Shown here in pieces: positions 59,567 through 60,652 of a stretch of DNA of 64,000 nt (position 1 is the stretch's first letter; each line of letters opens with the position of its first letter). The stretch covers positions 1 to 64,000 of the forward strand of contig PXRE01000034.1 in the NCBI GenBank assembly GCA_003021085.1, read 5' to 3'. The notes below the pieces were generated by a model. That model saw nothing but the letters and a program-made list of their open reading frames with translations, did no database searches and was not told the DNA's origin. This stretch comes from Halobacteriales archaeon QS_1_68_20 (GTDB lineage: Archaea > Halobacteriota > Halobacteria > Halobacteriales > PXRE01). The position numbers and the translations under genes are program-made.

Positions 59567-60610
59567 TCACACCGGCCCGTTGCCGGGCAGGCGGTAGAAC
59601 TCGAAGCGGCGCTGGACGGCGTCCTCGACGTAGGTTCGCGGGTACTCGACCGACCACGACGGCCGGTAGTTGCGCTCGTCGAGGCCGGGCGTCCACTCCA
59701 GGCCGCCACCGGTGTCGTACCCGGACGTGTCGTCGCCCTCCTTCGGCATGCTCTGGGGTGAGTAGAAGTGGGTCGCGCCGCCGCTGTTGTCGGGGACCGA
59801 GCAGGAGAGGACGTCGCGGGCGAGGTCCAGGCTCTCGCTGGAGGGGTCCTTGCCGTGGGCGTAGGCGTCCCACTCGTCGGTCACCCGGGTCGTGCCGTTG
59901 CGGTCCATCCGGTTGAGGACGCTGTAGGCGACGGCCCGCCGCTCGGCGTCGTTGGCGACGTACCGGCCGGCCTCGGACGTGACGATCTTGCCGAGCGCCC
60001 AGGCGTTGTCGTCGGTGTACCAGGCCGACCGGCACCCGGAGAGGGTGCCCGACGCCAGCCACCCGTCGTCGGCCGACCAGCCGGTCCGGTGGTCGTGGTA
60101 CTGGAGCTTCCACCACACGTAGCCGTCGCTCCAGGTCGGTCCCCCGACGATGGTGCCCGTCGCGCCGGTGGCGGCCGTGTCGATGACGTCGTAGTCGGTC
60201 CCCGGACCGTTGCGAACGTTCAGCCGGGTGGTCGTGTGGACGCCGTCGTACCGCAGGAACTTCCACCCGGAGTAGTCCTTGCCGGACCGGAGCCAGCCGT
60301 CGCCTTTCGCGCACCACCCCGTCGCCGTGTCCTCGACGCGGTCGTCGTCGAACTCGACCTCGTACCAGTCGTAGCCGTCCGCCGCGACCGGACCGTCGAA
60401 CACCTGGCCCCGCATCCGCGCCGGTTCGGTGTCGATCACCGAGTACCCCGTCCCGGGGCCTGTCCGGACGTTCAGCGTGTTCGTCGTGTGGACGACTTCA
60501 CCGAGCGCGAACGTCACGGCGCTCGCTCGTTCGACCGATACCGTTCCCAGTCCGGCCCCGGCGGTCCCGACCGCCGCGACCGTCCGCAGGTAGTTCCGTC
60601 GACTCGGCAT
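59567..60610 (-). CDS. Secreted SH3b protein with SleB-like cell-wall hydrolase domain
   Basis: 347 residues. Tat signal SRRNYLRT at 3-10. Two bacterial-type SH3 domains follow: about 36-115 (TLNVRTGPGTGYSVIDT) and about 125-195 (LNVRNGPGTDYDVIDT). The C-terminal 140 residues match the SleB/CwlJ hydrolase pattern, including IVTSEAGRYVANDAERRAVAYSVLNRM near 208 (Glu near 212 in the expected catalytic place) and GGATHFYSPQSMPK near 290. In bacteria this domain cuts peptidoglycan. Archaea have none, so the substrate may be bacterial walls; the domain assignment is from memory of the family. Confidence 0.82.
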   Translation of the reverse strand: MPSRRNYLRTVAAVGTAGAGLGTVSVERASAVTFALGEVVHTTNTLNVRTGPGTGYSVIDTEPARMRGQVFDGPVAADGYDWYEVEFDDDRVEDTATGWCAKGDGWLRSGKDYSGWKFLRYDGVHTTTRLNVRNGPGTDYDVIDTAATGATGTIVGGPTWSDGYVWWKLQYHDHRTGWSADDGWLASGTLSGCRSAWYTDDNAWALGKIVTSEAGRYVANDAERRAVAYSVLNRMDRNGTTRVTDEWDAYAHGKDPSSESLDLARDVLSCSVPDNSGGATHFYSPQSMPKEGDDTSGYDTGGGLEWTPGLDERNYRPSWSVEYPRTYVEDAVQRRFEFYRLPGNGPV

Positions 60611-60633: not shown

Positions 60634-60652
60634 GTTTAAATTTAATTTAAAC
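60634..60652. promoter_or_regulatory. 19-bp palindrome upstream of the SH3b hydrolase gene
   Basis: GTTTAAATTTAATTTAAAC is a perfect palindrome about a central T, 24-42 bases before the start codon at 60610, where the promoter should be. Could be TATA box and operator combined. Confidence 0.6.

Follow-up and report, generated by a model that had tools for sequence, protein, structure and literature searches.

Archaeal peptidoglycan hydrolases that kill bacteria have already been published, as the first-pass annotation of the locus described here had noted; the enzymes are Woldo and Danwoldo of Halogranum salarium B-1 (PMC12352652). The second reference point is the family of spore cortex-lytic enzymes SleB and CwlJ, which carry the Hydrolase_2 domain (PF07486; PDB 4f55, 4fet). 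In SleB, the catalytic glutamate is essential for the lytic transglycosylase activity of the enzyme (PMC12331253). The window analysed here, a stretch of 64,000 nucleotides from the Halobacteriales archaeon QS_1_68_20, encodes a protein in which a domain related to that of SleB follows two SH3b domains. Its features are as follows:

59567–60610, minus strand: whole gene, encoding a 347-residue SH3b-SH3b-SleB-like protein predicted to be exported
60518–60610, minus strand: twin-arginine (Tat) leader, MPSRRNYLRTVAAVGTAGAGLGTVSVERASA, based on its sequence and its homologues
60296–60493, minus strand: SH3b domain 1, residues ~40–105 (PF08239 match 60302–60478, 28.2 bits)
60065–60235, minus strand: SH3b domain 2, residues ~126–182 (PF08239 match 60071–60226, 32.3 bits)
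59570–60025, minus strand: SleB/CwlJ-like (Hydrolase_2-related) catalytic domain, residues ~196–347
59972–59974, minus strand: codon of the invariant E213, which in the alignment falls on the glutamate of GEARGE/GESRGE in canonical Hydrolase_2/SleB
59693–59779, minus strand: GATHFYSPQSMPKEGDDTSGYDTGGGLEW, in which MPKEGDDT...GGGLEW forms a conserved loop specific to the subfamily, ahead of the last strand
60634–60652, no strand assigned: palindrome GTTTAAAT-TTA-ATTTAAAC, with TTTAAA at 60635–60640, the centre of which lies ~27 nt before the ATG

The ORF, which runs from an ATG to a stop codon included in the coordinates, is a real, intact gene. Its GC3 of 0.94 is like that of its neighbours, and its overall composition likewise matches the neighbouring haloarchaeal genes. 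Full-length relatives with 59–61% identity occur in two other haloarchaeal genomes, and the SleB-like ORF is intact in five; apparent internal stops that had raised the question of pseudogenes in G105 and G316 proved to be terminal stops only, and both ORFs are intact. Over the catalytic domain, dN/dS is 0.09/0.38 for L003–L011 and 0.12/0.64 for L012–L013, well below 1 in these close pairs, which indicates purifying selection on the SleB-like gene.

Against the window protein, Hydrolase_2 scores 15.7 bits (E 0.023), below the curated cut-off of 27. A SleB claim would thus be unsafe from the Pfam library alone, and the domain is described here as a divergent relative rather than filed as a Pfam member. 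On sequence comparison, its common ancestry with Hydrolase_2 and SleB/CwlJ is secured through its relatives, which are found in Halorussus ruber (L003), in three more haloarchaeal genomes (L011, L012, L013) and, beyond the haloarchaea, in an alphaproteobacterial MAG (L004) and a Methanothrix MAG (L005). PF07486 matches the Methanothrix protein with 48.8 bits and further archaeal relatives with 41.4 and 42.7 bits, all above the cut-off, and the alphaproteobacterial protein with E 1.5e-4. The profile A2, built from the C-terminal domain, retrieves canonical Hydrolase_2 proteins from other genomes of the same alphaproteobacterial order (66–82 bits with PF07486 in the four scanned) and aligns with the canonical Hydrolase_2 profile at 97.3% probability (hhalign, E 2.2e-11); the canonical set in turn matches the solved SleB structure 4f55 (E 3.5e-16). 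The SleB-like domain named in the first-pass annotation, sub-threshold as it is in the window protein, is upheld by these comparisons.

The catalytic-looking glutamate that had been placed near residue 212 is E213: it is invariant across nine diverse members, aligns with the catalytic glutamate of SleB in the GE(A/S)RGE motif and, in the predicted model, sits where the first long core helix ends. Over its last third, the domain departs from canonical SleB through a conserved stretch of ~35 inserted residues; the hallmark of the subfamily is the conserved stretch MPKEGDDT...GGGLEW...RNYRPSW inserted ahead of the last strand, the PKEG and GGL columns being invariant within the subfamily alignments and the loop absent from canonical members. 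An AlphaFold model of the SleB-like domain alone (pLDDT 72, shallow alignment) has SleB 4fet_A as its top PDB match, but the match is weak (E 0.44, probability 0.69, TM 0.47/0.58, with 0.58 on the target). For the whole protein, the model is of low quality (pLDDT 47, SH3b part unusable), and a fold search returned no match.

The sub-threshold Pfam score, together with a rare and patchy distribution among relatives (of 394 genomes of the order, five have a clear SleB-like domain and a sixth, G301, only a marginal one), would also suit a gene taken up from bacteria that has since decayed or lost its catalytic activity. We regard such a relic as very improbable, given the intact ORFs in five genomes, the invariant glutamate, the purifying selection and a locus that is conserved in two families. 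The adjoining genes (Diphthami_syn_2, DUF373 and NTP_transferase) stand in the same order in Halorussus, and two of them are 67% and 76% identical to their Halorussus counterparts. These haloarchaeal house-keeping neighbours also speak against a lysis gene of viral or prophage origin and against bacterial contamination of the assembly, explanations that are already largely refuted and to which we give next to no weight: phage lysins often contain SH3b and SleB-type domains, and the protein has PHROGs matches to lysis families through SH3b, but relatives are absent from IMG/VR, INPHARED phages and PLSDB plasmids, which argues against phage or plasmid origin, and the synteny with Halorussus argues against assembly contamination.

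Both proposed SH3b domains exceed the Pfam cut-off for PF08239 (SH3_3, 27 bits), the two stretches adding up to 53.6 bits. The N-terminus, MPSRRNYLRTVAAVGTAGAG, is a twin-arginine leader, and the arginines at residues 4–5 are nearly invariant among the 113 haloarchaeal SH3b proteins introduced below; in a crude count, an RR motif lies near a possible start in 98 of 112 of them. The NCBIfam TAT model, in contrast, gives the window protein 9.9 bits, below its cut-off of 16.7. The proposed Tat export thus finds its backing in the near-invariant twin arginine and not in the model, and we infer that the protein leaves the cell by this pathway. Upstream of the gene, the palindrome is exact, and shuffled sequences lead one to expect none by chance, even at two mismatches. 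It is not conserved in relatives, which rules out a conserved operator. The known spacing of TATA boxes in haloarchaeal promoters is the basis for reading its TTTAAA half as probably the TATA box of a leaderless mRNA, and the case for regulation that had been built on the palindrome is accordingly weak.

The SH3b module reaches far beyond this gene. With the whole window protein as query, matches were found in 55 of 344 genomes of the order searched, nearly all via SH3b; 112 SH3b proteins were extracted from the matched loci and, together with the window protein, scanned against Pfam. These 113 proteins were thus picked by SH3b similarity and not by catalytic domain, the SleB-like ones matching over the catalytic domain as well. 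A peptidoglycan-lytic catalytic domain is present in 107: Amidase_2 in 42, M23 in 41, a transglycosylase domain (SLT) in 15, a SleB-like domain in five and glucosaminidase alone in four (glucosaminidase occurs in eight altogether, three times with amidase and once with M23). The remaining six carry GH18 (two), S15 (two) or no other domain (two). Two more genes with the module lie in the window's own genome. One encodes M23+SH3b (G000:C11); in the other (L039 3938–5782, G000:C37), an S15-like peptidase with two SH3b domains is split over several frames by either frameshift errors or pseudogene formation, while its relatives L059 and L060 are intact. The occurrence of SH3b on S15, GH18 and lone proteins, and in these broken frames, implies that the module does not always go with peptidoglycan.

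Several architectures were seen along the way. L014 and L028 encode GH18 family enzymes with two SH3b domains each and with chitin or peptidoglycan as candidate substrates, and the 727-residue haloarchaeal ORFs of L015 and L016 join Amidase_2, four SH3b domains and glucosaminidase in an architecture like that of bacterial bifunctional autolysins. An 871-residue protein (L025 127–2739, minus strand) combines a DUF900 alpha/beta hydrolase, four SH3b domains and Amidase_2. In another archaeal family of the phylum, a large protein (L136 1–3297, minus strand) contains Amidase_2, a SleB-like domain, fn3 and PKD repeats, with Amidase_2 joined directly to the SleB-like domain, and an archaeal polysaccharide deacetylase is fused to a SleB-like domain in L135 (388–3102, plus strand).

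The best reading of the window protein is a predicted exported peptidoglycan lysin acting against bacterial walls, with a probability of about 77%; it is well supported by the 107 of 113 module proteins with peptidoglycan-lytic domains, which favours the secreted lysin first proposed, of antibacterial or scavenging use. The lysin could work in the following manner: The protein would be exported by the Tat pathway, and its two SH3b domains would bind bacterial peptidoglycan. The C-terminal domain may then cleave the glycan strand with E213 as general acid, as a lytic transglycosylase or a muramidase, judging by homology. Haloarchaea are without peptidoglycan. Because the producer has none, it would not need an immunity gene, and the enzyme presumably targets the walls of dead bacteria or of bacterial neighbours. 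As expected for such an archaeon, murA has no match above cut-off in the 81.5%-complete genome (best 55.9 vs 392.7 bits); a search of the same genome with PF07478 is uninformative, since this profile matches all control genomes. The SleB-like domain may be one interchangeable warhead of a module whose other fusion partners are amidase, M23, SLT, glucosaminidase and, rarely, GH18.

The lack of peptidoglycan in haloarchaea can also be turned the other way: the domains might have lost their action on peptidoglycan and taken on a task at the surface of the archaeon itself (S-layer glycans, biofilm matrix, mating), which would agree with the SH3b domains on haloarchaeal S15 peptidases and with the lineage-specific insertion in the catalytic domain. 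This reuse, raised as an option by the first-pass annotation, is disfavoured and unlikely: the module is nearly always paired with muramoyl amidase, SLT, M23 or glucosaminidase, hence with peptidoglycan-type chemistry, and a clear SleB-like domain in so few genomes would be odd for a house-keeping surface enzyme.

Within a genome, SH3b domains from different catalytic classes often resemble each other closely: those of an amidase and an M23 protein in G060 share 86% identity, and those of an SLT and an amidase protein in G284 share 94%. In the SleB proteins with a single SH3b domain, L012 and L013, this domain is 80–83% identical to amidase-linked SH3b domains and 74% identical between the two proteins. 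These identities suggest that a SleB domain was swapped onto an amidase-type SH3b; a tree test gives no proof, since a single clade of SleB-linked SH3b domains is not rejected with the first SH3b of the window group (p 0.36) and marginally rejected with the second (p 0.045).

Some of the module genes lie side by side. In L055 (5329–8886, G060:C23), four adjacent genes on the same strand encode an alpha/beta hydrolase (DUF900-like, with an RR leader), Amidase_2+SH3b, M23+SH3b and glucosaminidase+SH3b, a set that looks like a haloarchaeal bacteriolytic gene cluster. SH3b-linked SLT, M23 and amidase genes stand in a row in L085 (1719–4124, G284:C1), and SH3b-linked SLT and M23 genes are adjacent in L089 (G328) and L078 (G340); the SH3b domains of adjacent genes are closely similar in these three loci. 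Tentatively, and at somewhat less than even odds, the proteins may form a shared haloarchaeal bacteriolytic arsenal, in which one SH3b module is placed on six or more catalytic domains, sometimes in clusters (transglycosylase, endopeptidase, amidase, glucosaminidase and perhaps a lipase-like hydrolase), for the extracellular dismantling of bacterial prey, with the SleB-like enzyme as a rare warhead. The complementary bond specificities found together in L055 and L085 would suit complete digestion and hence a scavenging role for the same enzyme, with carbon and nitrogen gained from the digested peptidoglycan of dead cells instead of the killing of live competitors. Scavenging is left open by PMC12352652 itself, but the two haloarchaeal hydrolases of that study kill live bacteria; we consider this role possible, though less likely than not.

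Set against the described systems, the predicted lysin resembles Woldo and Danwoldo in being haloarchaeal and modular, with tandem wall-binding domains, exchangeable catalytic domains and Tat export (predicted for the window protein); whereas those enzymes combine PG_binding_1 with M23 or glucosaminidase, the window protein, a predicted hydrolase, joins a SleB-like domain to two SH3b domains. By the rule of PMC12352652, at least one Pfam catalytic and at least one Pfam wall-binding domain, SH3_3 lies above its cut-off and Hydrolase_2 below. SH3_3 is detectable at E 0.001 in only 38 of the 113 haloarchaeal SH3b proteins, so that counts based on Pfam probably underestimate the antibacterial enzymes of archaea, and the SleB-type warhead belongs to a repertoire that surveys at Pfam thresholds probably miss in part. 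In the literature searched, we found no description of a SleB-type domain on an SH3b pair or of the broad haloarchaeal SH3b repertoire, part of which may stand in the supplementary lists of PMC12352652. With SleB and CwlJ, the protein has in common the core helices, the catalytic glutamate, a GATHF-like strand and a terminal FYR-like strand; it differs in its score below the Pfam cut-off, in the conserved insertion and in its N-terminus, an SH3b pair instead of the three-helix binding domain of SleB, and its host is not a spore former. A third comparison is with the Tat-exported haloarchaeal SH3b proteins with Amidase_2, M23, SLT or glucosaminidase, which have a homologous SH3b module and leader and the same presumed target, but other catalytic domains, and are far commoner than the SleB-like type. 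Wall-cutting attack on bacteria by archaea was shown only recently, and for PG_binding_1 enzymes; the module described here is an SH3b module, widespread in haloarchaea and with a broader catalytic set, including the SleB type missed at Pfam thresholds, and its clusters of complementary enzymes are relevant to a question raised in PMC12352652, whether the antibacterial genes of archaea lie in clusters.
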